From: a virus
DNA length: 20,479 nucleotides
Virus record (IMG/VR): IMGVR_UViG_3300032288_000978
Coordinates: 1-20,479 of that record
Direction: 5' to 3' (one strand)
In this document: positions 4,823 through 19,617 of the stretch, one piece after another
How the letters are laid out: each line of letters starts with the position of its first letter
How positions within the stretch are numbered: position 1 is the stretch's first letter
Position numbers and translations under genes: made by a program
The notes under the pieces: generated by a model
The model's database searches: none
Seen by the model: the letters and a program-made list of their open reading frames with translations, nothing else
What the model was told of the DNA's origin: nothing

Positions 4823-4869
4823 TATTTACATACTTTTTTTTGGATAACTGTGTAAGTAGACATATATCA

Positions 4870-5397
4870 ATGTATTATGATAGGTGGCTAAGTAAGGCTA
4901 CAGGACTTGCACACGATAAAATAAAGGGCAGTGATCTACTGCACGAGGTGCTTGCCAGGTTAATGGATAGGCCCGAACAGGATGTTGAGGAAATAGTGTG
5001 CGGTGGTAAGATAGAAGCATATGTAAATAGGGCCTTGTGGCTATCGTGGCACAGCGCACGCAGCGATTACGCTATCAAATACCGTAAATACTACGAGCTT
5101 CACACAGAGAAACAGGTAGAAGATATCAAACAGGATGAGACATGGCTAGGTGCTTTCATAGATGGGGAGTATCTATACAGCGCAATCGGTAGACTAAACG
5201 AATTTGACGCTATCTTGTTACGGCTATATAGCAAACCTGACTTTGACTACAAAGAATTAAGTGAGCAGACTGGTATACCCTACGCCTACCTGCGCACATC
5301 TATACATAGGGCATTAAAACGAATACGAGAATATGTTAAACTTCAACGCTCCATTGCACATTCAGAGAGAGAGGCTGGCGATTTGCAAAAAATGTAA
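4870..5397 (+). CDS. Sigma-70-like factor
   Basis: 175 residues from ATG 4870. An extension to TTG 4840 is open, but TTG starts are rare in this host group and the sequence there is a poor translation leader. Residues about 10-60 (DLLHEVLARLMDRPEQ, then YVNRALWLSWHSARSDY) resemble sigma region 2. Residues about 105-156 (LNEFDAILLRLYSKPDFDYK, ELSEQTGIPYAYLRTSIHRA, LKRIREYV) match sigma region 4, with the helix-turn-helix for -35 recognition. It is the first gene of the rightward late cluster. A diverged ECF-like factor there probably redirects host RNA polymerase to late promoters, though it could be a packaging-linked HTH protein derived from a sigma factor. Confidence 0.75.
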   Translation: MYYDRWLSKATGLAHDKIKGSDLLHEVLARLMDRPEQDVEEIVCGGKIEAYVNRALWLSWHSARSDYAIKYRKYYELHTEKQVEDIKQDETWLGAFIDGEYLYSAIGRLNEFDAILLRLYSKPDFDYKELSEQTGIPYAYLRTSIHRALKRIREYVKLQRSIAHSEREAGDLQKM

Positions 5398-6280: not shown

Positions 6281-6880
6281 ATGAAGTTAAAGTTCAGCAT
6301 AGCAGCTAACGCAAAGGGTGTGACACTTGGCAAGTACATCGACTATCAAAACGCAGTCGATAAGGTTGAACAGGTGCATATAATCACGGGCAAGTCTAGC
6401 GAAAGCATTAGACAGCTCCAGTCGCATGTGATAGATGAAATCATTATGCGCTTTGAGGCTGCGATTAAGTTAGGCGGCAGCCACTTTGAACGTAAGGTGC
6501 GCATAGGTGCAATAGAGTTAGGCTTTGTGCCTAACCTTAACGAGTTGACATTCGGTGAATACATCGATTTAGACACGCACTGCGGCAGCATCTACAAAGA
6601 CGGCAAGATAAACGGCGAGGCTGCATTCAAAATGATGTGCATACTATACCGCCCTGTGAAAGCTAAGTTCGGCAAGTATTACGATATCGAGCCGTACCAC
6701 CCTAACGCCAAACGGAAGTATGAGAGCGAAGTATTGCAGCTGACGCTTGACCATGTACTGAATGTACTGCTTTTTTTTTCGAGTTTAGAAATAGAACTAT
6801 ACAACAGTTCCCTCGAATATTTGGCAAAGGAGATAACGGAGATAGTGAAGGAGATGAAGGAACAACCCCAGACGGCTTAG
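6281..6880 (+). CDS. Tail assembly chaperone, short (0-frame) product
   Basis: A 199-residue protein, the in-frame product ending at TAG 6878-6880. The N-terminal 160 residues are a helical and strand-rich domain (KLKFSIAANAKGVTLGKYID, then ELTFGEYIDLDTHCGSIYKD) of the type seen in tail assembly chaperones of long-tailed phages. After codon 166 a T9 run (6771-6779) gives a slippery TTTTTTT. The remaining 33 residues (SLEIELYNSSLEYLAKEITE and on) form a charged helix. Tail chaperones bind the tape measure protein and tail tube subunits before assembly and are absent from the virion. In most such phages a rarer, longer version is made by frameshifting. Confidence 0.8.
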   Translation: MKLKFSIAANAKGVTLGKYIDYQNAVDKVEQVHIITGKSSESIRQLQSHVIDEIIMRFEAAIKLGGSHFERKVRIGAIELGFVPNLNELTFGEYIDLDTHCGSIYKDGKINGEAAFKMMCILYRPVKAKFGKYYDIEPYHPNAKRKYESEVLQLTLDHVLNVLLFFSSLEIELYNSSLEYLAKEITEIVKEMKEQPQTA

Positions 6881-7044
6881 CTGTATACGGATGGTTTCAC
6901 ATCATCGAATCACTTGCAGAACGGGACATAACAAAGTTTGACGCTGTGACAGAGCGCGGAGTATATGAAGTATTTACGCATCTAACGTACCTAGCGGATT
7001 ACGTGTATGTGCAAAAAGTAGAAATGAGAAAACGACATAACTAA
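6281..7044 (+). CDS. Tail assembly chaperone, long product by -1 frameshift
   Basis: The same start as the short product, with a switch to the -1 frame at the T9 run, giving about 254 residues (166 in frame 0, then 88). From 6778 the -1 frame is open to TAA 7042-7044. It reads TTPDGLAVYGWFHIIESL, AERDITKFDAVTERGVYEVF, THLTYLADYVYVQKVEMRKR, a well-formed coding sequence with the W...AERDITKFD pattern of chaperone C-termini. It contains no ATG, TTG or GTG before the DAVTE stretch, so independent translation is unlikely. Its stop overlaps the next gene's ATG as TAATG. This parallels the gpG/gpGT frameshift in lambda tails. A homopolymer sequencing error at T9 would look similar, but the 0-frame tail is also plausible coding. 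Confidence 0.78.
6771..6779 (+). promoter_or_regulatory. T9 slippery run for programmed frameshifting
   Basis: Nine consecutive T residues, read in frame as CTT TTT TTT TCG, contain a perfect T-TTT-TTT heptamer. Slipping back one base puts the ribosome into the open -1 frame that runs to 7044. Transcriptional slippage at the same run could give a similar result. No clear downstream stem was worked out. Confidence 0.75.
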
Positions 7045-9302
7045 TGAATAGTTACAACTATAGTTACAACGTGCTAATCAATCGACTTGAGGCATTTGCT
7101 GCAGGTCACTTTTTGATTAAGCGATTTACGCACGGGCAAATTGATTTAGCCGACCAACTTCAGGATGATCAATACCCATTCATGCACGTAACACCTGATA
7201 CGATAGAACCTGTACAGGGTGGTATGCAGTTTGGCTTTCACATTATGTTTGCGGATATACCCCGTGACAAAGAATACAAAGCCGAATACCAGCGTGAAGT
7301 CATTAGCGACTGTGTGCGATTAGGTCAAGACCTTGTAGCCGAAGTCAAGAACGGACTACAGTTATTTGGATTTGATGTGCAGCTTATCAATGATGTGGTC
7401 TTTGAACCTTTTATGGAGGAACAAAAGAACACGGTCACGGGTGTAGCTTTCACAATTAAACTAGAAGTGCCGTGGGACTGGAGCGCATGTGATATCCCGG
7501 CTATTTGGTCTGTGGGTGGTGCATCAGGCAGCGGTGGTAGTGGCACAGGTTACGGCATCACACTACAGACAAACGGAGTAGATAACGTGGTGCAAACGCT
7601 GCTAAACTTAGAAGCAGGTACAAACATCACAATAACGGATAACGGAAATGGTACAGTAACTATTGATGCTGCAGGTGGTGGAGGTGGAGGCGGTGGGCCT
7701 TATGTGTCTACCGAGTGGAATGCAAACCACACCACAGCACAGGGCAACCCGTATCAGATTGGTGACCGTGTATGGTACAACGGCAGCGTGTATGCTTGCA
7801 TTGCCAATAACGACGGAATCAATCCAAGTAACCCAGCGTACTGGACATTGCAAAGTGCAGGCTATCGCTTGCGTCAAACGCCTGTGGATTGGAATGCAGT
7901 AAATGGCGACTATCAAATACTGAATAAGCCTTTTATACCTGCCTATCTTGACGACCTTGCAGATGTTAATGCAGGCAGTCCTAACGATGGGGACATACTC
8001 GTTTATTTTGCATCAGGCAACGAATGGAAAAACCAACCCAACACAGGCGGTGGTACGGTAACGAGTGTAGGTTTGTTGGTACCTTCACCCGGTGTTCCTG
8101 CCTTTAGTGTATCGGGTAGTCCTGTTACCACATCGGGCAACCTTCAAATCAATGCGCTGGGTACATCATTACAGTATATAGACGGAGAGGGTGCGCTGCA
8201 AACGTTCCCGAATGTACCTAAGTTCCTTTCAGACCTTATCTCAGGTAGTGCGCCGGGTCAATTGTTACAATGGAACGGTACGCAATGGGTGGTAATTAGC
8301 ATGCTTGCGCTTGATGATCTGTCTGATGTTAGTGCTACCACACCATCGAACGGTCAAGTGCTTGCGTATAATACAGGCACAGGTAAATGGGAAGCCTATA
8401 CACTTCCATCGCTTAGCGGATATGTGCCATATGTAGGTGCAACACAAGACGTAGACCTTGACACATTTAAGTTAAGTGCAAGCAGCGTTTATATTGAAGG
8501 TACAAGCGGCAATGGTCATTTGCATTTAAAGCATCAAAGCGCGGATGCAACAGCCACAGGTCAAAGCACATCGCTGTGGGCAGATACGAATGGAGATATA
8601 AAATGGAAAAATGATGGTAATTATAAGACTACATTAAAGACCAGTGCTAACGTAGCCGACCGCACGTATACATTCCCGGATGAAGATTGTACATTAATGC
8701 CTCGCAATGCAGCCATAACGGGTGCGACAAAGACCAAGATTACATATGATGCAGATGGACTCGTAACAGCGGGTGCAGATTTGGCTGCGGGTGATATGCC
8801 AACGGGTATCGACGCGGCTAACATCGGAAGTGGTGCGGTATCTAATACTGAGTTCGGTTATTTGGATGGTGTTACTTCAGCCATTCAAACGCAGTTAAAC
8901 AATAAAAAAGACACGGTCACCTATGGTAACGTTTACGCTGTTACGGTGGGTGCATCCTCTACGGTATATGCAGCGGTAAGTGGTCTTACTACTTTCAATG
9001 CAACAGAATCGAACCGACACTTTGCCGTGCCTGTTGCGGGTACGCTTAAGAACCTGTATGTAAAGATGAGCGGAACACAAAGTGCAACGGGAACGCTTGT
9101 GATTACCATGCGTAATAACGCATCATCAAGTGCAGTAACCGTAACCGTGTCTAATGCAGACGGTGCTTCTCCTACAAAGAGCGATAATGCAAACACTCTT
9201 GCGGTTGCAGCGGGTGATTTATTAGCTATCCAGTTGATCAATAACGCAACTGTGGCAAGTGCGTCTGTTGTATCTATCTCATTTGTAATTGAGCGTAGCT
9301 AA
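7044..9302 (+). CDS. Tail-completion-like domain fused to a tail fibre with carbohydrate-binding repeats
   Basis: A 752-residue modular protein. Residues 1-155 are a compact alpha/beta domain (FMHVTPDTIEPVQGGMQFGF, then IPRDKEYKAEYQREVISDC, then TVTGVAFTIKLEVPWDW) like tail completion or terminator proteins. A Gly-rich linker follows, with eight Gly at 211-218. Residues 222-268 (GDRVWYNGSVYACIANNDG and PSNPAYWTL) look like a CBM5/12-type carbohydrate-binding module. Three repeats of an LxDLxDV...GQxLxYN...WE type follow at about 301-330, 394-417 and 422-455, then typical fibre sequence (ITGATKTKITYDADGLVTAG, YLDGVTSAIQTQLNNK). The C-terminal 120 residues are strand-rich, possibly the receptor-binding head. 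It probably adsorbs to a host surface glycan. Confidence 0.78.
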   Translation: MNSYNYSYNVLINRLEAFAAGHFLIKRFTHGQIDLADQLQDDQYPFMHVTPDTIEPVQGGMQFGFHIMFADIPRDKEYKAEYQREVISDCVRLGQDLVAEVKNGLQLFGFDVQLINDVVFEPFMEEQKNTVTGVAFTIKLEVPWDWSACDIPAIWSVGGASGSGGSGTGYGITLQTNGVDNVVQTLLNLEAGTNITITDNGNGTVTIDAAGGGGGGGGPYVSTEWNANHTTAQGNPYQIGDRVWYNGSVYACIANNDGINPSNPAYWTLQSAGYRLRQTPVDWNAVNGDYQILNKPFIPAYLDDLADVNAGSPNDGDILVYFASGNEWKNQPNTGGGTVTSVGLLVPSPGVPAFSVSGSPVTTSGNLQINALGTSLQYIDGEGALQTFPNVPKFLSDLISGSAPGQLLQWNGTQWVVISMLALDDLSDVSATTPSNGQVLAYNTGTGKWEAYTLPSLSGYVPYVGATQDVDLDTFKLSASSVYIEGTSGNGHLHLKHQSADATATGQSTSLWADTNGDIKWKNDGNYKTTLKTSANVADRTYTFPDEDCTLMPRNAAITGATKTKITYDADGLVTAGADLAAGDMPTGIDAANIGSGAVSNTEFGYLDGVTSAIQTQLNNKKDTVTYGNVYAVTVGASSTVYAAVSGLTTFNATESNRHFAVPVAGTLKNLYVKMSGTQSATGTLVITMRNNASSSAVTVTVSNADGASPTKSDNANTLAVAAGDLLAIQLINNATVASASVVSISFVIERS

Positions 9303-9832
9303 TGAGCAATGAGTTTGAAAACATATTAAACGAGTATGCGCTTGCAGTTGTGGAGCGTGCGCAAAGTAACCTGCGCATCAAACGCAGGGTGCGTGGCAAG
9401 ACGGTTAATCGTGTCGCTTCAGGTCGTTTGCTCAACTCGCTGTACTATAACCTAAAGATACGATATAACAAACCTACAATAGACTTTACCGTGTCTAATG
9501 ATGAGGCAGGTAAGTACGCAGATGTTATCGAGTTTGGGCGTAAACCTTATCCAGGTGACCCAACTAAACGTCCACCATACAAGGACATCATGAAGTGGAT
9601 TAAGTTGAAACCACTAAAGCTGCGCAATAGGCAGGGTGAATTTATAAAGGCAACGGAAAGCAACATAAAGAGTGCCGCAATTGCTATCGCAAAGAGCATA
9701 GGTGAAAAGGGTATAGAGGGCATTAACTACTACAGCGAGGCAATAGACGATACATGGGACGAATACAAAGACAGACTAATGGAAGGCTATATTAAATCAG
9801 TTGAAAACCGACTACTACTAAATAAAAGATAA
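9302..9832 (+). CDS. HK97 gp10-like neck/tail-completion protein
   Basis: A 176-residue protein with the signature of the HK97 gp10 family: GRLLNSLYYNLKIRYN, YADVIEFGRKP (72-82) and RPPYKDIMKWIKLK (90-103), then helices up to the end. Members form the ring joining the head to the tail and are usually beside the tail tube and connector genes. The start overlaps the previous stop as TAATG and the stop overlaps the next ATG likewise, so translation is coupled along this stretch. The N-terminus is very basic (RIKRRVRGKTVNRVASGR), which fits a DNA-facing surface. I would expect the major capsid gene in front of it; instead a fibre fusion is there. Confidence 0.8.
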   Translation: MSNEFENILNEYALAVVERAQSNLRIKRRVRGKTVNRVASGRLLNSLYYNLKIRYNKPTIDFTVSNDEAGKYADVIEFGRKPYPGDPTKRPPYKDIMKWIKLKPLKLRNRQGEFIKATESNIKSAAIAIAKSIGEKGIEGINYYSEAIDDTWDEYKDRLMEGYIKSVENRLLLNKR

Positions 9833-11115
9833 TGGCAATTACTATAAATGACCAGCCATACAACTGGGCGGTACGAGGGCAGAAGCTAATGATCATTGCA
9901 ACGAGTACGGAAACTGCGCAAATCGGTTTTCGTTACGGTGTTGAGGTAGTGATTGAGGGCAAAACCTATAACTTTTATATACCCGCTGCGCCCGATAATA
10001 AGTTATACTTTGACCTCAACCCGCTAGTCGATGATATGCGCAATGTGTTAGGCCCAAATGAACACTACCAAACAGATGACACTGTAGATGATGATAGCAA
10101 ACTAAATCTAAGCTTTACGCTTAGCGAGTGGTGGTTAGTTGCGGGTGTGCTAACACAGGCAGAAGGTAGCGAAATATCAGGTACTGAAAAGATAGTTATC
10201 AATGGCTACTACCAAGTCATTGACGGGTACAAACCAAACGTGCAAACAGGTAGCAACAAAGTCAAGTACTCGCTAACATCGACAAGCAGTCTACCGATGT
10301 CGGATAGGTTTGAGGGCATGGTCAATAATCTCCTTGCATCTACGTGGGGATTTGGCCCTACTGCAAACGCTGTGTGGATTCCTGTATTTGAAACAGACTA
10401 CGGATTGCTATCGATACCCGGCAATGATACATACTTGACCAATAACACGGTAGACAGTTATAAGATTACTATCTATTCTAGCGCAGGCGCACCTACTACT
10501 GCAACGCTCAATCTAAACGGTTACGATATAGAAGGCTTGCCTGTTTACCCTGCCAACCTAAACGACTACACGGTGCTTGCTGTTAAGCCTTCGCTATTCC
10601 CTAACTGGAGATGTTACACGGTTACCGTGTTCAATGGTGGAACACAAAAGAGTGAGCCGTACATATTCTATAACGCGGGTGTGTATGGACAGCGTGACTG
10701 CAAGTATTACAACATGCGCCTCGCGTGGGTGAATAGCCGTGGCGGATGGGACTATTTTAACTTCATTAAGAAGTCTGAAACTACAGACGAGATAGATCGC
10801 AAGAAATTCCGCAAGGTGTTGTTTAATGGTACTACTACGGTATTCAATGCAACAGACCGTGGATTGCAAGAACGTAGAAACTTAGTGCAACAGGTTATAA
10901 CCATAACCAGTGACTACATTAGTGAGGGTGAGTTTAAGTTCTTGCGTTCATTGCTTGTGAGCAATCAGGTTGAATGGCTAACAGAAGATTCAGGTAAGGC
11001 TATCAACATACCTGTCAACTTAGATGATACCTCGTATGTGGAAAAGAACACACGCGATGGTAAGCTTTACAACGTAACTTTAAAGATGCGAATCGCAAAC
11101 GAATACTGGACATAA
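9832..11115 (+). CDS. Phage tail structural protein, exact role unknown
   Basis: A 427-residue soluble protein rich in beta strands and aromatic residues, with no signal peptide. The N-terminal part (QIGFRYGVEVVIEGKTYNFY, then DNKLYFDLNPLVDDMRNVLG) and the segment near residue 292 (YNMRLAWVNSRGGWDYFNF) are of a type I associate with long-tailed Bacteroidota phages near tail hub genes. It is 1 bp upstream of a 1068-residue tail protein and overlaps the gp10-like gene by one base. Likely roles are tail tip (Dit-like) or tube attachment. I cannot choose from sequence alone, and no enzymatic motif is visible. Confidence 0.7.
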   Translation: MAITINDQPYNWAVRGQKLMIIATSTETAQIGFRYGVEVVIEGKTYNFYIPAAPDNKLYFDLNPLVDDMRNVLGPNEHYQTDDTVDDDSKLNLSFTLSEWWLVAGVLTQAEGSEISGTEKIVINGYYQVIDGYKPNVQTGSNKVKYSLTSTSSLPMSDRFEGMVNNLLASTWGFGPTANAVWIPVFETDYGLLSIPGNDTYLTNNTVDSYKITIYSSAGAPTTATLNLNGYDIEGLPVYPANLNDYTVLAVKPSLFPNWRCYTVTVFNGGTQKSEPYIFYNAGVYGQRDCKYYNMRLAWVNSRGGWDYFNFIKKSETTDEIDRKKFRKVLFNGTTTVFNATDRGLQERRNLVQQVITITSDYISEGEFKFLRSLLVSNQVEWLTEDSGKAINIPVNLDDTSYVEKNTRDGKLYNVTLKMRIANEYWT

Positions 11116-11116
11116 C

Positions 11117-14100
11117 ATGAACGGAGAAGTACAACTAATAGTTAAAGTACCCGGCACAGCACCGAGTGGTGTTGTATTGGCTACTGAATCGGGTGTAATA
11201 AATGATAGCGTTAACCCTCAAGAGGTGTTTAGCTATCCAAATGATATGAGCGCATATGTTGGTGGATATGTTCAAATACAAAGTGCAGTATATGGTGATT
11301 TAGGTACTTTTTTTATTAGCGCAGTTACAATAGACAACCCTGCCTTCTCCTATATTAGTCCAACCAATACGCAAATATTTACAACCGTTCCGTGGAACTT
11401 TAATGTCGGTGGTGCTGACTTACCGAACTTTAACTATATGCAGGCCGTGCCTTCCACGACCGATTACTATCTTGATTTATTTGAGAATGAGAGCATCAGT
11501 CAAAACTGGAAGTTTCAAGACCTCACTAACTTTACCTCACAGGGCGCATTCTCGCGTGAGTTCCGTGTCCCGTATAGCTTAAATAATCAGGAAGCATTAG
11601 GCGCATTGTTTGATGTAAACGTAACAGCCGGGACTGAAAACTATTTTCACTATAAGCTACCTGCGGAAATACGGGTGGATACCTTGCCCATCGCAACGGG
11701 TTATGTTCGCGTGCGCAAAGTATACAAGCAACAGAATAGAATTAATGAGGTAGAGTTAGCATTCTATGCTGAAACTCCAGACCTCGTGCGTAACATCGGG
11801 GAAAAGAAGCTAAGTGATATTGCTGCGCTTAGTACGCTAGATGAAACTATTAACTATGCATCTGTGACCAATCCAAACGCTAACCGTATTTGGACAATCT
11901 TAGATCGTGGTCAGTTATGGAGTGAAGGCGGTGAAGAAAACACTAGACCATTGACCTCGTCAACATCACCTGTATATGCGGGAGATTTAACACCTGCTAT
12001 CAGTTGGTGGTGGCTATTTGAAAACATTATAAGTGATGCAGGTTTTGAACTAGCGGCAGGTACACTTGAGAATATACTTGAAACATACTGGATGCCGTGG
12101 CTTAACACGCAAAAGTTAAGCACTAGTAGCAATCTTAATTCTTATAATTTTCAAGCCTACCCTACTGCACAAACAGGTATCAATAATTTCTTTACTACTA
12201 TACCTATCAATACGGAATTATTTGATAATAATAATGACTTTAATACTGCCACATATACCTACACAGCATCAGCGGGTGGTATACATACATTTAGAGCCAT
12301 AGTTGAATTTACAAATCTATTGCCTAATCCAGTCGATGTAATCATTGCCTTGTCCATTAATGGTAGTACGGCATATAATGAGATGTGGCTAGGGGATATT
12401 AATAACGGTAGCATTATAGATACCACACTTTCAAGACCATTAGTAGCTGGTGATACGGTACAACTTCAGGTGTTGCAGGGCGCATTGCCAGCTAACGCAT
12501 TTGTGTTTGTAGAGCCGGGTGATGGTACAACAAATAGTACATTCTTTACACTAGAATCAACTGACTTATTTTATGGGCAAACAATGTTCTATCAATTGAA
12601 TGCGCCTGATATGAAGCAGATTGATTTAGTGACGGATGTAATCAAAATGCACAACTGTGCTATTGTCCCAGATAGGACAATTGCAAATAAAATATACATT
12701 GTGCCACAAAATAGTTACTTAGGTAGTGGCGATACTTTAGACTGGACACCTAAACTTGACATATCAAAAGACATTGTATTAAGTAGCACTACGGATCTAC
12801 AGAAGGCAAAGTTCCAATTTACTTATACGGCAGGTGAAGAACTTACAGCTAAACCTTATAGAAATGTAAATAGAATTTACGGTGATTACGAAGCGGTAGG
12901 ATATACAGTAAATCCAAATACTGCACCTAGTGACTTTGCAATAGGTGACCAAAAGATACAGCTTGTTACACGCTCTACACCATCAGGCGTGTTAAATGGT
13001 AGTGGCTACGTGATACCGTTATTTTATAATGATAGTTTAGAATTTGTTGCACCTGGGCCTCGTTGTCTATTTGAAGCTGGAACGGTTAACATCAAACTAT
13101 TTAATGATTCAACTCTAACTGTTGTTACTGAACCAATACCCGTTTTAAATAATTACAGTCAAGTCAACGCAAACATTGATGATGAGGATTTGAATTGGGC
13201 ACCTGAAGTGCCGCCCCACGCCATTACAGCAAACCCATACAATAACTTATTCAATAAGTACTGGCGCAGTTATATGAATGCTTTGTATTCACCAGAGGGT
13301 CGAATTATGGAAGCATCGTTTGCGCTTGATCTAAAGGATATACTCACATTCAAGTTTAGCGATAAGGTTTGGATACAGGATAGCTATTGGCGCATCCTTG
13401 AGATTACCGATTACAAGGTTGGCAATTACGAAAGCACAAAGGTTAAGCTGCTGAAGATAGTTGAAGAAAGTGAAGATTGCAGCGGTACACCCGCATCGAT
13501 TAGTGTGAATGGTGAAGTGAATTTTGAAGATGCAAATGGTGACCCAATAGAAGCGACTCAAGATTGTTGCTTGCGTTATGGTTATGATTGGGATGAAACA
13601 GCGGGGGTTTGCTGGGCGTTTACCTTAAATGGTAATAGACCAATACCACCAACTCAAGGCAGTCCTACTAATCCTTCGCCACGTGTCATTAAAACAGCAA
13701 GGCAAACAAGAGCCATACTCAACAGTACCATTAATGGTCAAGAGGTATCTATTGTAGACGGTAATAAGAACATGCTTGCCGTAGGTGAGAACTTGACACT
13801 AACAGCCGATGTGCAGGGCAGCACCCTGTTAGGTAAAAATGTTGATACCAATCTACCCGGTATTCACATAGGTGGTGGTTATCGTGATGGTCTTGTAGGC
13901 AATTCAGCATATACAGGATGGGCGCAGCATGGCACGGTTATCTTGCACAAACAAATAAATTTTGCTGCTTCACCACAAACTGATGAACTCTATGTGGAGG
14001 GTGTAGTGGGTACGCATATTAACATACCCGAGGATTCTCTATGGTCTTGTATTTTGAACTTTACAATTAAAGACATTGCATCTACTTTGTATGAATCAAG

Positions 14101-14323
14101 CGTGTATCATTTTAGCATTGATAAACAAGCAGGGGCAACTGTATTAGCGGCCATTAATCAAATAAGCGTGACGGGTGCAATACCGGGTGTTGCTATAGTG
14201 GTGGGTGTTGATGTGGTAACGAATCCAATTGAGGCACGCATCAATGTAACAATGACAGGTACACCAACGGGAAACATGGTAGCCGTTGCATCAGTAGAAT
14301 ACCAACAGCACAAAACAACATAA
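11117..14323 (+). CDS. Large tail hub/baseplate-type protein
   Basis: At 1068 residues this is the largest protein in the window. Near residue 130 it has a motif common in Bacteroidota phage tail proteins (WKFQDLTNFTSQGAFSREFR, then VPYSLNNQEALGALFDVN), followed by strand-rich sequence. From about residue 815 a cysteine-rich insert (QDCCLRYGYDWDETAGVCW) precedes a C-terminal domain of about 220 residues with repeated strands (IDNPAF type, and THINIPEDSLW). The layout, a large N-terminal tail domain plus a C-terminal domain, suits a central tail-hub protein with a host-contacting end. It starts 1 bp after the previous stop. It could instead be a side-fibre attachment protein; the position before the tape measure is less usual for a hub. 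Confidence 0.72.
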   Translation: MNGEVQLIVKVPGTAPSGVVLATESGVINDSVNPQEVFSYPNDMSAYVGGYVQIQSAVYGDLGTFFISAVTIDNPAFSYISPTNTQIFTTVPWNFNVGGADLPNFNYMQAVPSTTDYYLDLFENESISQNWKFQDLTNFTSQGAFSREFRVPYSLNNQEALGALFDVNVTAGTENYFHYKLPAEIRVDTLPIATGYVRVRKVYKQQNRINEVELAFYAETPDLVRNIGEKKLSDIAALSTLDETINYASVTNPNANRIWTILDRGQLWSEGGEENTRPLTSSTSPVYAGDLTPAISWWWLFENIISDAGFELAAGTLENILETYWMPWLNTQKLSTSSNLNSYNFQAYPTAQTGINNFFTTIPINTELFDNNNDFNTATYTYTASAGGIHTFRAIVEFTNLLPNPVDVIIALSINGSTAYNEMWLGDINNGSIIDTTLSRPLVAGDTVQLQVLQGALPANAFVFVEPGDGTTNSTFFTLESTDLFYGQTMFYQLNAPDMKQIDLVTDVIKMHNCAIVPDRTIANKIYIVPQNSYLGSGDTLDWTPKLDISKDIVLSSTTDLQKAKFQFTYTAGEELTAKPYRNVNRIYGDYEAVGYTVNPNTAPSDFAIGDQKIQLVTRSTPSGVLNGSGYVIPLFYNDSLEFVAPGPRCLFEAGTVNIKLFNDSTLTVVTEPIPVLNNYSQVNANIDDEDLNWAPEVPPHAITANPYNNLFNKYWRSYMNALYSPEGRIMEASFALDLKDILTFKFSDKVWIQDSYWRILEITDYKVGNYESTKVKLLKIVEESEDCSGTPASISVNGEVNFEDANGDPIEATQDCCLRYGYDWDETAGVCWAFTLNGNRPIPPTQGSPTNPSPRVIKTARQTRAILNSTINGQEVSIVDGNKNMLAVGENLTLTADVQGSTLLGKNVDTNLPGIHIGGGYRDGLVGNSAYTGWAQHGTVILHKQINFAASPQTDELYVEGVVGTHINIPEDSLWSCILNFTIKDIASTLYESSVYHFSIDKQAGATVLAAINQISVTGAIPGVAIVVGVDVVTNPIEARINVTMTGTPTGNMVAVASVEYQQHKTT
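13560..13620 (+). other. Cysteine motif inside the hub protein
   Basis: This stretch encodes DCCLRYGYDWDETAGVCWAF, with two adjacent Cys and a third 13 residues on. The pattern 'CCxxYGYxWDxxxGxCxW' is compact and distinct from the surrounding sequence, suggesting a small disulfide- or metal-stabilised loop in the virion. Confidence 0.4.
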
Positions 14324-14324
14324 T

Positions 14325-14498
14325 ATGGACAACATCAAAAACTCATTGCGCTATTTACAGCTAGGCATTAAGACCTTACCACAACACGTGTATTCACTTC
14401 GCCCGTGGCAGCGTGTGCTGTGGTTTGTCACCTTGTATGTATGGCGCACGTTTCTTTTTTTTACTATAATTTACCTAATAGCTAAACTTATTTACTAA
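14325..14498 (+). CDS. Small membrane protein of 57 residues
   Basis: A complete ORF filling the gap between the hub and tape measure genes. It reads MDNIKNSLRYLQLGIKTL, PQHVYSLRPWQRVLWFVT, LYVWRTFLFFTIIYLIAKLI and a last Tyr. Residues 31-56 form one long hydrophobic, aromatic membrane segment interrupted by R41, after a basic amphipathic N-terminus. ATG 14325 is 1 bp after the hub stop, and its TAA overlaps the ATG of the tape measure protein (TAATG). These tight junctions on both sides argue for a real gene. Candidates are a holin or a membrane-associated tail protein used during DNA entry. No family is recognised. Confidence 0.7.
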   Translation: MDNIKNSLRYLQLGIKTLPQHVYSLRPWQRVLWFVTLYVWRTFLFFTIIYLIAKLIY

Positions 14499-16861
14499 TG
14501 GCTGAACCTATTGTACGGAGTTTTGTAATTGACACAACGCAGGCTGAGCAAAATCTGAAGAGCCTTGATGCAGTAACGAGCACAACTAATGCTGCGCTTG
14601 ATACTTTGTATAACCAACTTATAAGCTTGGATGCACAGCTTCAGAAACTTGACCCGAATAGTCAAGCCTTTGCTGAAGTCAATACCCAAATACAGCAATT
14701 AGAAACCACAATTACAGGTATTGAAACGGGAAAGATTGATGATATTGGTAAGGCTATTGAGAGCATTGACGCTGGCAATGCAGCACAAAGCATCGAGCAA
14801 GTAGGTGATGCTGTGCAACAGGTTGTTGCGCCTGTAGATAATCTTGCTACTGCGACCGATAAACTTAACACCGAACTCAAAGAAACGAAGGTAGACACCA
14901 CAAGCATAGAGGGTGCATCTCAAGACTTTAAAGAGTTAGCCGTACAAGAGGAAACAGTAGTTACATCCAGCAAGTCACTTAAGGCGCAGCTACGTGAATT
15001 ACAGGCACAGCTTGCAGCTACTGACCCGCAAACAGAAAAGTATCGTCAGTTATCACAGGCAGCGGGTGAACTTAAAGATAAGATACAGGATGCAGCACAG
15101 GCAGTAGGCACACAGGCGGGGGGTGCGTTCGAGCGTGTAGGTGGATCATTAGGACTGGTCACATCCCGTATTGCTAACCTTGACTTTGAAGGTGCGGCAG
15201 AAGGTGCAAAGCTACTTGCACAAAACATTACGCAGATTAAGCCGGGTGATATTGCCAAAGGTATAAGCAGCATTGGTAGTGCATTTGCATCTGTTGGTAA
15301 GGCACTACTTACTAACCCTATATTCTTAATAGGTGCAGCCATTGCTGCTGCTATTGTGTATGCAGAAGAACTGCTGTCGCTTATTGATGGTGTGACTGAT
15401 GCGGAAACTAAAGCACTAGATGCACAAAAGGAACGTGCGGCATTAGCAAAAGAACAAGTCGATGCTATAGGTGCACAGGAGGAATCTTTAAAGCGTCAAG
15501 GCTTAACTGAAAAACAAATTACTGACTTAAAATTACAAGCATTAGACACAGCTATACTTGAACAACAGGCAGTACTTGAAACTACACGCATACAAGCAGA
15601 AGGGCAAATAAAAGCAGCAGAACGTAATGCGCAATACCTAAAGACATTCCTCGACTTTGTTACGTTTCCACAGCGCAAACTTGCTGAGTTCTTTGAAGGA
15701 TTTGTAAATGGTAGCATTGATATTCTTAACAAGTTAGGACTGGGAATAGAAAAGATTGATGTTACATCGGTCTTTGAAGATGTAAACAACTTTGTAGTTA
15801 AGAAGATATTCGACCCCGAGAAAGAGCGCAAAGAGCAAGAACAAATAGTTAAAGATGCTGAAAAAACTTTGGTGTCCTTAAACAACCAGCGTGATGGAAT
15901 ACTTAACGCACAGGATGCAAAAGAAAAGGCGGCTGCTCAAAAGGCAGCGGATGATAAAGCTAAAGCCGCAAAGGATGCAGCAGATGCACAGCTAAAAGCT
16001 GAACAAGAAGTTAGTGATTTGCTGAATCAGTTATACGAGGAAAACCTGAAGGAGTTTGAAGATGCGGAAAAGGCAAAGACAGCAGCAGCAGAACTTGAAG
16101 CGGAAAAAAGAAAAAAGGCTGAAGAAGAATATAACACAGCTATTGCGGCATTACGCGCTGAACAAGACGCAGCCAACTTAACGCAAGATCAAAAGGAAAT
16201 TATTGCAATTGATAACAAGTATTTAGACCTACGCGAAAAGGCAATAGCGGCAGGTAAAAGTACTGTAGAGATTGATGCTGCATATAAGGCGGCATTAGAA
16301 CAACAAGAAAAAGATTCTGCTGAAAGAAGAAAAGCGAATGAAGTCGCAGTACAAGATGCAAAATTGCAGGCAACATCGGACGCATTAGGCGCAATTAATG
16401 GACTAGTAGGTGCATTTGCCAAAGGAGATGAGAAGCGTGCAAAGGCAGCATTTAAAATACAGAAAGCTGTAAGCATAGCACAGGCAACTGTGGATACGTA
16501 CAAAGGTGCTAACGCAATTTTTGCAAGTGCAGCTGCTAACCCAGCAACAGTTTTATTCCCCGCTCAACCATTTATTGCAGCGGGTGTAGCAATTGCATCA
16601 GGTTTGGCAAACGTGGCTACTATAGCACAGCAACAATTTCAAGGTGGTGGTCAACCCGGTGGTGGTGGTAATAATGATAGTGTGCCTAACCTTCCTGATG
16701 GAGGGGGTGGTTCACAACCTGCACAGTTCAATCCGCTTGCATCTTCATTCTTGCAAGATAGACCAGAGCAATTAACGCCCCGTGCGTATGTACTTGCGGG
16801 TGATGTGGCAAGTCAACAGGAAGTAAGAACAAAGGTTGAAGACCTTGCACGGATAGGATAA
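14498..16861 (+). CDS. Tail tape measure protein
   Basis: A 787-residue protein with long stretches of coiled coil and Ala, Gln, Lys and Glu richness. Residues 1-210 are coiled-coil (LYNQLISLDAQLQKLDPN, LKAQLRELQAQLAATDP). A hydrophobic segment lies at about 270-293 (LTNPIFLIGAAIAAAIVYAE), then another coiled coil at about 440-640. The C-terminus (IAQATVDTYKGANAIFASAA, then AAGVAIASGLANVATIAQQQ, a Gly-rich run, and RAYVLAGDVASQQEVRTKV) is characteristic of tape measure proteins in this host group. The protein sets tail length and its membrane segment helps DNA enter the cell. At roughly 0.15 nm per residue, a familiar rule for such proteins, the tail would be near 120 nm. The chaperone at 6281 is its expected partner. 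Confidence 0.9.
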   Translation: MAEPIVRSFVIDTTQAEQNLKSLDAVTSTTNAALDTLYNQLISLDAQLQKLDPNSQAFAEVNTQIQQLETTITGIETGKIDDIGKAIESIDAGNAAQSIEQVGDAVQQVVAPVDNLATATDKLNTELKETKVDTTSIEGASQDFKELAVQEETVVTSSKSLKAQLRELQAQLAATDPQTEKYRQLSQAAGELKDKIQDAAQAVGTQAGGAFERVGGSLGLVTSRIANLDFEGAAEGAKLLAQNITQIKPGDIAKGISSIGSAFASVGKALLTNPIFLIGAAIAAAIVYAEELLSLIDGVTDAETKALDAQKERAALAKEQVDAIGAQEESLKRQGLTEKQITDLKLQALDTAILEQQAVLETTRIQAEGQIKAAERNAQYLKTFLDFVTFPQRKLAEFFEGFVNGSIDILNKLGLGIEKIDVTSVFEDVNNFVVKKIFDPEKERKEQEQIVKDAEKTLVSLNNQRDGILNAQDAKEKAAAQKAADDKAKAAKDAADAQLKAEQEVSDLLNQLYEENLKEFEDAEKAKTAAAELEAEKRKKAEEEYNTAIAALRAEQDAANLTQDQKEIIAIDNKYLDLREKAIAAGKSTVEIDAAYKAALEQQEKDSAERRKANEVAVQDAKLQATSDALGAINGLVGAFAKGDEKRAKAAFKIQKAVSIAQATVDTYKGANAIFASAAANPATVLFPAQPFIAAGVAIASGLANVATIAQQQFQGGGQPGGGGNNDSVPNLPDGGGGSQPAQFNPLASSFLQDRPEQLTPRAYVLAGDVASQQEVRTKVEDLARIG

Positions 16862-16954: not shown

Positions 16955-17551
16955 ATGGAAAAAAGAAAAGTAGTCAAGTGTGTAATAGATGATGAAGGTC
17001 GTTTGGGTATTACGGCAATGGGACTTGTGGACATGCCCGCAATAGAAGAAAACTGGATTGCACTCAGCAAGATGAAGCTAAGTGCATTGAATGAGGAGCG
17101 TAGAATGTTGTACGGCCCTGCACTTATCCCGGATAAAGAGATACTACGTTATGATGATAAAGGCGAAGCCTACTATGTGTACTTTGAAAAGGCTACGGTG
17201 CAAGCAATCGCGCATCAATTCTTTAAAAAGAACCTGCAACACACCACTAACCTGCAGCATGAGATACCTGTAACGGGTGTGACCGTTGTAGAATCATGGC
17301 TTAAAGAGGGCAAGAATGATAAGAGCATCGAACTTGGATTGCCTGACTTGCCCGATGGTACATGGTTTATCGGTACGAAGGTAGACGAAGAGCATGTGTG
17401 GAATGATGTGAAAGAAGGCAAGATAAAAGGCTATAGCATTGAAGGCTTTTTTAACGAGGTAGGTGTAGCCATGAGTGGTGTCAAGAATTACGAAGCTGAG
17501 TTGGTGCTAGAACTTGACCAGCTACTGAGCAAAGTAAACCCATCCAAATGA
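16955..17551 (+). CDS. XkdF-type prohead maturation protease
   Basis: At 198 residues this matches the XkdF family of phage prohead proteases. Matching segments are GITAMGLVDMPAIEENW near the N-terminus, YGPALIPDKEILR (53-65), NLQHEIPVTGVTVVESW with H102, GTWFIGTKVDEEHVWNDV, and KGYSIEGFF with S161. The His and Ser are the probable catalytic pair. These enzymes cut the scaffold and capsid N-termini during head maturation. A scaffold-like gene lies downstream, with an S8-type protease gene and a small minus-strand gene in between. The stop overlaps the next gene's ATG as ATGA, so the two proteases are translationally coupled. The ATG at 16955 is the first in frame and follows an A-rich leader. 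Confidence 0.85.
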   Translation: MEKRKVVKCVIDDEGRLGITAMGLVDMPAIEENWIALSKMKLSALNEERRMLYGPALIPDKEILRYDDKGEAYYVYFEKATVQAIAHQFFKKNLQHTTNLQHEIPVTGVTVVESWLKEGKNDKSIELGLPDLPDGTWFIGTKVDEEHVWNDVKEGKIKGYSIEGFFNEVGVAMSGVKNYEAELVLELDQLLSKVNPSK

Positions 17552-19617
17552 AAATAAACAGCGTCAAATTCAAAGACCGTGCGTCTTTTGACAAGAACAA
17601 AACCAAGCCTAATGTAGTTGCAGTACACGAGCCGTTTGGCATCATTGTGTTTCAAGATGAACAGCCAGTTAAGGCTGACCATACAAAGGTATCACAGGTC
17701 AACGAGGTTGATGGATCACTAGACCAAATTGCTACAGGTCTTGCTATACTTGTTGCACCTGACTTAGATGCAGCAATTGCATATTGCAAAAAGAATAAGG
17801 TGCAAATTACGGAAACATTCCACCTTACTAATACGCTATTCGTAGAAGTACCTGCCTTTGCTGCCTTCAATGAGTTCTACATTTCACTTATGAATAGCAA
17901 ACTATTCACGAGTGTAGAGCCTGATTATATACAGCCATTTGATACCAATGCAGATGCATATACTTACAGCGGTCAATGGCACTTACCTAATATGCAAGCG
18001 GCAGAAGCTTGGAGTCTGATTGATGGTGCAGCCTATGGTGAGGTTGCAGTACTGGATATTGCATGTGATGTTGACCATGAAGATTTAGTAGGTAGAATAA
18101 GTGATACATCATGGAACTGTGTGACGGATGCTCCCGATGTAAGACCCGTAAGTGAGTATGAAAGGCACGGCACACCCTGCAGCGGATTGATATGCGCAGC
18201 AACAGATAACAGCATAGGTGTGTCCTCACTAGGTAACAACAAACTGAAGGTGCAATTTCTGCACATCGGTTACGGTTCGAGTTCAAGTGGTAGCTTTTCC
18301 ACATCGGACACCATCGTAACACGTGCTGCTAATAAGGCAATAGCTAACCCTAACTGCCTTGCTATATCAATGAGTTGGGGAGGTAGTAGTTCAAACGCAT
18401 ATCCGCTATTTCAAAACGCATTAACGGCAGCAAAAACAGTAGGGCGTAATGGTAAGGGTATACCAATCTTTGCAAGTTCAGGTAATCAAAACAATCCTAA
18501 CTTTACACAGGCACCTGCAATATACCCAATGGTACATGCAGTAGGTGCATCTACTCAGTCAAACGCCCGTGCATCATTTAGTAACTACGGGCCAAAGACA
18601 TTTGCTGCTGCTCCCGGCACATCATGCCCAACAACTGACCGTATGGGTGCAGCGGGTTATAAGCCTGATAGTAACTATACAGCGTTTAGTGGTACATCAT
18701 GTTCATGCCCAGTCATGGCAGCGGCAGCGGCTAGTGTAATACTTGCTAATCCATCACTTACAGAGGCGCAGGTAACTGATGTGCTTAGACAATCATGCCG
18801 CAAGACTGGAGGATATACCTACGATGTAAACGGTAAGAGTTTAGAGTTGGGTTATGGTGTGGTAAATATGTACAATGCCGTGACTATTGCAAAGACTTTA
18901 GACGGTGGCGACCCTACACCCGTACCTGTTGCTGAATACAACCTGTTTGGTAATATCTCTACACTTGCAACGGCTGTGCAAGGCTCTAGTGTTAATGTTA
19001 CATACAGCGTTAATTTGGATAAAGTGCATACATCCGATGTAATTGCTACCGTGCAGCTTACATTCACTAGACCCGATGGTACTAAGTTTATATTCTATAC
19101 CGGGGATGTGACCATACCGAAAGGTCAAACCGTAGTAACTAAGACTGCACCTTTTGCATTACCTAATAATCAAACAGGCAATGCTCTTTTCTCACTTACC
19201 ATTGACCCGAATATGGTCATAAAGGAAACCAATGAGAATGATAACACGATTAGCACAGGTACAACTATTACACTTGTTAACCCACCTGCCGCAGGACTGG
19301 ATGCAAGCGTAACAATAGACCGTTACGAATGGCTCGATGCTAACCGTGTGCGTATCTATTACACCTTCTACAACAAAGGCAGCGTGGTAATTACCAGCAT
19401 GAAAGTAAACCACGGCCTTGTTGGTGGGTACACGGGTACATGGAACCGTACAGATCGTATAGAAGTTGGTAGAACTGCGACCTTTGCGAGCGTGTATAAT
19501 GTGACTATGCCACCTGTTGCATTGCCTACGGATTACGTGCTTACAATTACAGCCGTTAATGGTGTGCCTGATAATGATGTGACAAATAACACGGCACGTT
19601 TGCAGATTAAAAAATAG
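17548..19617 (+). CDS. Subtilisin-like (S8) serine protease with CARDB-like repeats
   Basis: At 689 residues this has an N-terminal pro-domain-like region (1-130; TNTLFVEVPAFAAFNEFYIS, then KLFTSVEPDYIQPF). An S8 peptidase domain with a complete triad follows: D170 in VAVLDIACDVDHEDL, H207 in ERHGTPCSG, oxyanion N313 in ASSGNQ, and S384 in FSGTSCSCPVMAAAA. After residue 450 two CARDB/Ig-like repeats follow, ending in NETNDNTIS-type (IKETNENDNTIS) and PDNDVTNNTARLQ turns. There is no signal peptide, so it stays in the cytoplasm or enters the virion. Genes beside it (an XkdF protease and a scaffold) suggest head maturation or a virion-carried protease. A role in cell-wall or capsule attack at entry is also possible. 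Confidence 0.85.
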   Translation: MKINSVKFKDRASFDKNKTKPNVVAVHEPFGIIVFQDEQPVKADHTKVSQVNEVDGSLDQIATGLAILVAPDLDAAIAYCKKNKVQITETFHLTNTLFVEVPAFAAFNEFYISLMNSKLFTSVEPDYIQPFDTNADAYTYSGQWHLPNMQAAEAWSLIDGAAYGEVAVLDIACDVDHEDLVGRISDTSWNCVTDAPDVRPVSEYERHGTPCSGLICAATDNSIGVSSLGNNKLKVQFLHIGYGSSSSGSFSTSDTIVTRAANKAIANPNCLAISMSWGGSSSNAYPLFQNALTAAKTVGRNGKGIPIFASSGNQNNPNFTQAPAIYPMVHAVGASTQSNARASFSNYGPKTFAAAPGTSCPTTDRMGAAGYKPDSNYTAFSGTSCSCPVMAAAAASVILANPSLTEAQVTDVLRQSCRKTGGYTYDVNGKSLELGYGVVNMYNAVTIAKTLDGGDPTPVPVAEYNLFGNISTLATAVQGSSVNVTYSVNLDKVHTSDVIATVQLTFTRPDGTKFIFYTGDVTIPKGQTVVTKTAPFALPNNQTGNALFSLTIDPNMVIKETNENDNTISTGTTITLVNPPAAGLDASVTIDRYEWLDANRVRIYYTFYNKGSVVITSMKVNHGLVGGYTGTWNRTDRIEVGRTATFASVYNVTMPPVALPTDYVLTITAVNGVPDNDVTNNTARLQIKK

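Follow-up and report, generated by a model that had tools for sequence, protein, structure and literature searches.

A conserved T9 run and an open -1 frame in a phage tail-module gene point to a probable two-product chaperone of the lambda G/GT type

Does the gene that starts at position 6281 of this virus DNA end at its own stop codon, or is it also read beyond that stop in another frame? The window, which is the whole analysed stretch of 20,479 nucleotides, contains a 0-frame ORF at 6281-6880 encoding 199 amino acids. Near its end lies a run of nine Ts (6771-6779), read in the 0 frame as CTT TTT TTT TCG, with the heptamer T_TTT_TTT (6772-6778) in phase. No stop interrupts the -1 frame for 88 codons, from 6778 to a TAA at 7042-7044, and this TAA overlaps the ATG of the following gene (7044-7046) in the junction TAATG. 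Judging from the sequence and from the analogy with lambda, the gene at 6281-7044 very probably yields two proteins through programmed slippage at the T9 run, and these would be chaperones similar to lambda G and GT. Most readings would end at 6880 and yield the 199-residue chaperone, while a minority would slip into the -1 frame at CTT TTT TTT and add a helical domain of 88 residues. The short and long forms have residues 1-166 in common, up to and including Phe-Phe, and the predicted long form has about 254 amino acids in all. The features of the locus are listed below, with the evidence in brackets.

6281..6880, + strand: 0-frame product, the short, G-like putative chaperone (ORF, dN/dS, model, phrog_32199)
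6771..6779, + strand: T9 run, the putative slip site (sequence, conservation across clusters)
6778..7044, + strand: -1 extension (88 aa and its TAA stop), forming the T-like domain in the putative long form (dN/dS, model)
6780..6880, + strand: dual-coding overlap, encoding the C-terminal tail of the short form and the linker of the long form (dS drop, dN/dS in both frames)

An earlier sequence-only reading had described the T9 run, the 88-codon open -1 frame and the TAATG junction, and all of them were found again in the sequence. It had also seen no early ATG, TTG or GTG in the -1 frame. Codons 1-56 indeed contain none of the three, the earliest start being a GTG at codon 57. Its slip site, T-TTT-TTT, is in phase as claimed, and only the junction needs correction: Phe-Phe is kept and the first -1 codon is TTC (6778-6780). 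Among the 20 genes of the window, the T9 gene alone has a -1 frame that stays open so far past the gene's stop. At another heptamer in the window, at 17536, the -1 frame merely enters the next gene and forms no substantial new extension.

The codon substitution test that had been suggested for the -1 frame was performed on 50 distinct close relatives, mostly 73-96% identical. Upstream of the run, the dN/dS of the 0 frame is 0.22. Past the 0-frame stop, the -1 frame has a dN/dS of 0.17 and is free of stops in all 50 relatives, whereas the other two frames give 1.55-2.0 and are stopped in every one of them. Within the overlap (6778-6877), the -1 frame has a dN/dS of 0.39 and the 0 frame one of 0.47, and in the same relatives dS drops from 0.62 to 0.16-0.19, as is expected where two frames are read. 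The end of the 0 frame is variable in length, its stop coming a few codons earlier in 8 of the 50. The -1 frame is a real, conserved protein-coding sequence, and both frames are under purifying selection in the overlap. Therefore, a decaying gene or a base-calling error is ruled out as the cause of the two-frame arrangement.

Conservation over greater distances was followed in relatives collected by searches of IMG/VR and GTDB, with additional seeds from odd members and one search seeded on the -1 domain alone, so that the run was not presupposed. The T run and the open -1 frame, for which the earlier reading had wanted a comparison of relatives, are kept across the resulting 353 usable loci (in 78 clusters, with identities as low as about 25-30%; some contigs are present twice). 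Runs of at least nine Ts occur in 77 of the 78 clusters, L332 having T10, and the remaining one (L243/L245, GGT TTT TTT TAC) has eight Ts and keeps just the in-phase heptamer. In-phase T_TTT_TTT is present in all 78. The run is missing only in L062, L130 and the truncated L064 of one locus set and in the truncated L354 of a later set. Broken -1 frames and T8 or T10 runs giving a single frame, either of which would speak against the frameshift, were looked for; practically all relatives with sequence that reaches this region have an open -1 frame, and independent assemblies from many metagenomes repeatedly show T9. In L062 (match 2475-2951) a deletion removes the slip site and joins the 0-frame protein and the -1 domain in one ORF of 220 aa, which is either a natural variant or an assembly artefact.

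Homopolymers are error-prone, and one might suppose that the T9 run is a sequencing or assembly error, or that the gene is decaying, the true run giving a single frame. Two loci of the same project series, where relatives have T10, have longer runs: T11 in L345, which reads as one ORF of 245 aa, and T12 in L351 (match start 1501). These lengths are either homopolymer errors or real variants. As an account of the window, error or decay is nevertheless extremely improbable. T9 is found in many independent metagenomes and also in a cultured phage's GenBank entry, and selection acts on the 0 frame beyond the run as well, unlike what a single fused frame would bring about.

The cultured phage is Nonlabens (Persicivirga) phage P12024S (GenBank JQ823122), a direct relative that has the sequence CTT TTT TTT TAT, a T9 run, with an open -1 frame. 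Its 0-frame protein is 28% identical to that of the window, and its tail module corresponds to that of the window as far as the tape measure gene. In the deposit, genes 38 and 39 (L082 9001-9695; JQ823122.1 23136-23830) appear as two unrelated hypothetical proteins with no frameshift annotated. Gene 39 begins at an internal ATG and is missing the first 26 residues of the extension. Probably, genes 38 and 39 are one frameshifted gene. Gene 38 corresponds to phrog_32199, which is also matched by the window 0-frame protein and by all 29 representatives, and phrog_38404 covers residues 27-81 of the extension; both PHROGs are of unknown function.

The annotated start of gene 39 inside the -1 frame, together with the restriction of phrog_38404 to residues 27-81, would agree with a -1 frame that is a separate gene, translated from an internal start or by restart after the 0-frame stop. 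We consider this very unlikely. The -1 domain is marked by a conserved F.FR.R block at its start and a WGWY.S.Y.LA.GD core, and the F.FR.R block begins directly after the run, ahead of any start codon. Moreover, ATG, GTG and TTG are all absent from -1 codons 2-36 in 187 of 224 loci (ATG is absent in 209), and a separate gene would leave the conservation of the run unexplained. We infer instead that the extension is reached by slippage and that both proteins are produced.

The frameshifted gene heads a tail module whose order is shared with P12024S. Three further members of the module are listed here.

7044..9302, + strand: next module gene, its ATG overlapping the -1 stop, its N-terminus weakly similar to P12024S gene 41
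9302..9832, + strand: counterpart of P12024S gene 42, phrog_29822
14498..16861, + strand: final module gene, encoding the tail length tape measure protein (phrog_1506, E 1e-8; P12024S counterpart)

The window proteins at 9302, 9832 and 11117 match P12024S genes 42 (E 8e-13), 44 (E 1e-5) and 45 (E 5e-9), respectively, and the module ends in both genomes with the tape measure gene (14498 versus gene 49, E 4e-15). The match between the N-terminus of the 7044 protein and gene 41 is weak (E 0.01), and gene 42 itself has a weak match to the tail completion/Neck1 family. P12024S carries extra small genes ahead of its tape measure gene. With named phages as the target, tblastn of the window proteins at 9832 and 14498 and of a distant -1 domain gave no match.

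Several neighbours deserve mention in their own right. The product of 7044-9302 (752 aa) looks like a composite tail protein from its sequence: the gene 41-like portion makes up the first ~150 residues, and after it come linkers rich in Gly, repeats and a weak match to CBM5/12. At 17548-19617, after an XkdF-like protease gene, a 689-aa protein resembles subtilisin-type serine proteases (HGT and GTS motifs seen by eye), an unusual cargo for a phage structural region. Just upstream of the tail module, 4840-5397 encodes a sigma-70 region-4-like protein that falls below the Pfam cut-off, and P12024S has a sigma-70 region 2 gene at a similar place.

The best reading of the two products, from their architecture and the shared tail module, is that they are probably a tail assembly chaperone pair of the lambda G/GT type, with the tape measure protein as the presumed client. 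By analogy with lambda, the role of the part common to both forms would be to coat the tape measure protein, and that of the -1 domain to recruit tail tube subunits. In lambda, the low-level G-T shift and the resulting 30:1 ratio are important for tail assembly, and G/GT chaperones are typified by a -1 gene with two forms within a tail operon (PMC5009743). Such -1 shifts are widespread among tail genes despite low sequence similarity (PMC5009743); their conservation was described by Xu, Hendrix and Duda (2004), as cited in PMC5009743. The likeness to G/GT that we propose is one of similar working. The chaperone role named by the sequence-only reading is borne out by this architecture and by the P12024S module ending in the tape measure gene, but not by homology to a named chaperone family: neither part matched a tail chaperone family in Pfam, NCBIfam or the PDB.

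The two parts were modelled separately, not as a fused protein, with a pLDDT of 86 for the 0-frame product and of 70 for the -1 domain, which is helical. A PDB fold search with the -1 domain and the 0-frame model returned nothing usable. The best matches to named viral structures are weak (E 0.17-0.18), and the best structural neighbours are uncharacterized phage proteins. Two candidate relatives were discarded. First, hhalign of the 0-frame profile gave no match to T4 gp26 or gp51. Second, phrog_166 ('tail protein') is matched weakly by 7 of 29 members and does not occur in T4, lambda, P12024S or the window. Separately, in Flavobacterium phage 6H (L311, NC_021867; 10048-10351, minus strand), an unannotated gap after gene 10 contains an open -1-frame domain. 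With 191 aa (576 bases), gene 10 agrees in length with the structural match R9VW65, and a T_TTT_TTC site is present, but with a -1 stop immediately after it.

The frameshifted gene might also serve the tail module in another way, for instance as a two-form head-tail joining or baseplate factor. Such a function could account for the lack of homology to named chaperones, for the uncharacterized structural neighbours and for the distance from the tape measure gene, which lies 7.6 kb and four genes (7044-14323) downstream; the lambda-like position directly before the tape measure gene is absent here, although synteny was taken as non-defining. We regard a role of this kind as improbable, given that G/GT-type genes are recognised by just such a minor form, extended in the -1 frame, within a tail operon, and that no other gene of the module combines a slippery heptamer with a substantial new -1 extension.

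A G/GT-like pair could be made by two routes. A -1 slip of the ribosome on U_UUU_UUU is slightly favoured, and it fits the in-phase heptamer of every cluster, which is just what the T8 cluster retains. In the serious alternative, the same two products arise when RNA polymerase adds a U at the T9 run and the U10 mRNA is translated normally into the long form. This we hold to be quite possible, if on balance not probable, and both routes may contribute. Where the earlier reading had both forms made through T-TTT-TTT, the conserved -1 extension and the two products are strongly supported by comparison; the ribosomal slip is possible, and the polymerase route, which that reading had not considered, also fits. 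Since either route gives the same junction peptide, LFFFEFR in the window, mass spectrometry cannot separate ribosome from polymerase.

Several observations are consistent with polymerase slippage. First, seven Ts suffice for the ribosomal slip, yet all clusters but one have at least nine, and in many bacterial genomes A/T runs begin to be visibly selected against at a length of nine (PMC1088944). Second, the L085 clade has lost a 3' T and gained a 5' T (TTT TTT TTT CTN), so that it stays at nine Ts in another phase. Third, no downstream RNA structure was detected in 28 representatives (mean z +0.08 versus +0.20 in controls). Fourth, the coding sequences outside the T9 gene, taken from 74 nonredundant loci, contain 3 A runs of nine or longer where 15.5 are expected (minimum of 9 in 100 synonymous shuffles). 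This depletion is expected if such runs slip, and it suggests that these phages pay a price for long homopolymers. There is also a precedent in Shigella mxiE, where slippage on a U run gives the longer product (PMC1088944). However, coding constraints can account for the outer Ts, which would belong to a hydrophobic codon (NTT) in the 0 frame and to a Phe/Leu codon (TTN) in the -1 frame. T8 occurs in one cluster, a single clade shows the compensating change, and the tail-chaperone shifts described in a review are ribosomal (PMC5009743). The evidence for polymerase slippage is overall suggestive only. That this mostly environmental phage family makes its long chaperone mainly by polymerase slippage, in place of a lambda-like ribosomal shift, is less likely than not.

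The locus is a real, well-supported conserved two-product tail gene of a type already known, and what is unusual about it is that a run of at least nine Ts is conserved. The family does not appear to carry such an annotation, and literature searches found no paper on this T9 frameshift. It is a large family, mostly environmental, and its one cultured member here infects a marine flavobacterium. The comparison offers a likely function for phrog_32199 and phrog_38404 and corrects the split annotation in P12024S. Moreover, the hundreds of natural variants provide a test case for whether phages can replace a ribosomal frameshift by polymerase slippage and still make the same two products, a swap of mechanism known for dnaX between E. 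coli and Thermus (PMC1088944).

Compared with lambda G/GT, the gene shares two overlapping ORFs in a tail operon, an in-phase X_XXY_YYZ site, a C-terminal extension in the -1 frame and a stop of this extension that overlaps or adjoins the next start. Unlike in lambda, the slip site is a homopolymer of at least nine Ts, and four genes separate the frameshifted gene from the tape measure gene. Similarity to named chaperone families in Pfam, NCBIfam or the PDB was not detected in sequence or fold. Thermus dnaX and Shigella mxiE are bacterial genes; polymerase slippage in the phage gene is putative, and its run always holds an in-phase ribosomal heptamer as well. In common with the A9 run of Thermus dnaX and with mxiE, the phage gene has a long homopolymer on the sense strand, where one extra U would give the -1 frame.
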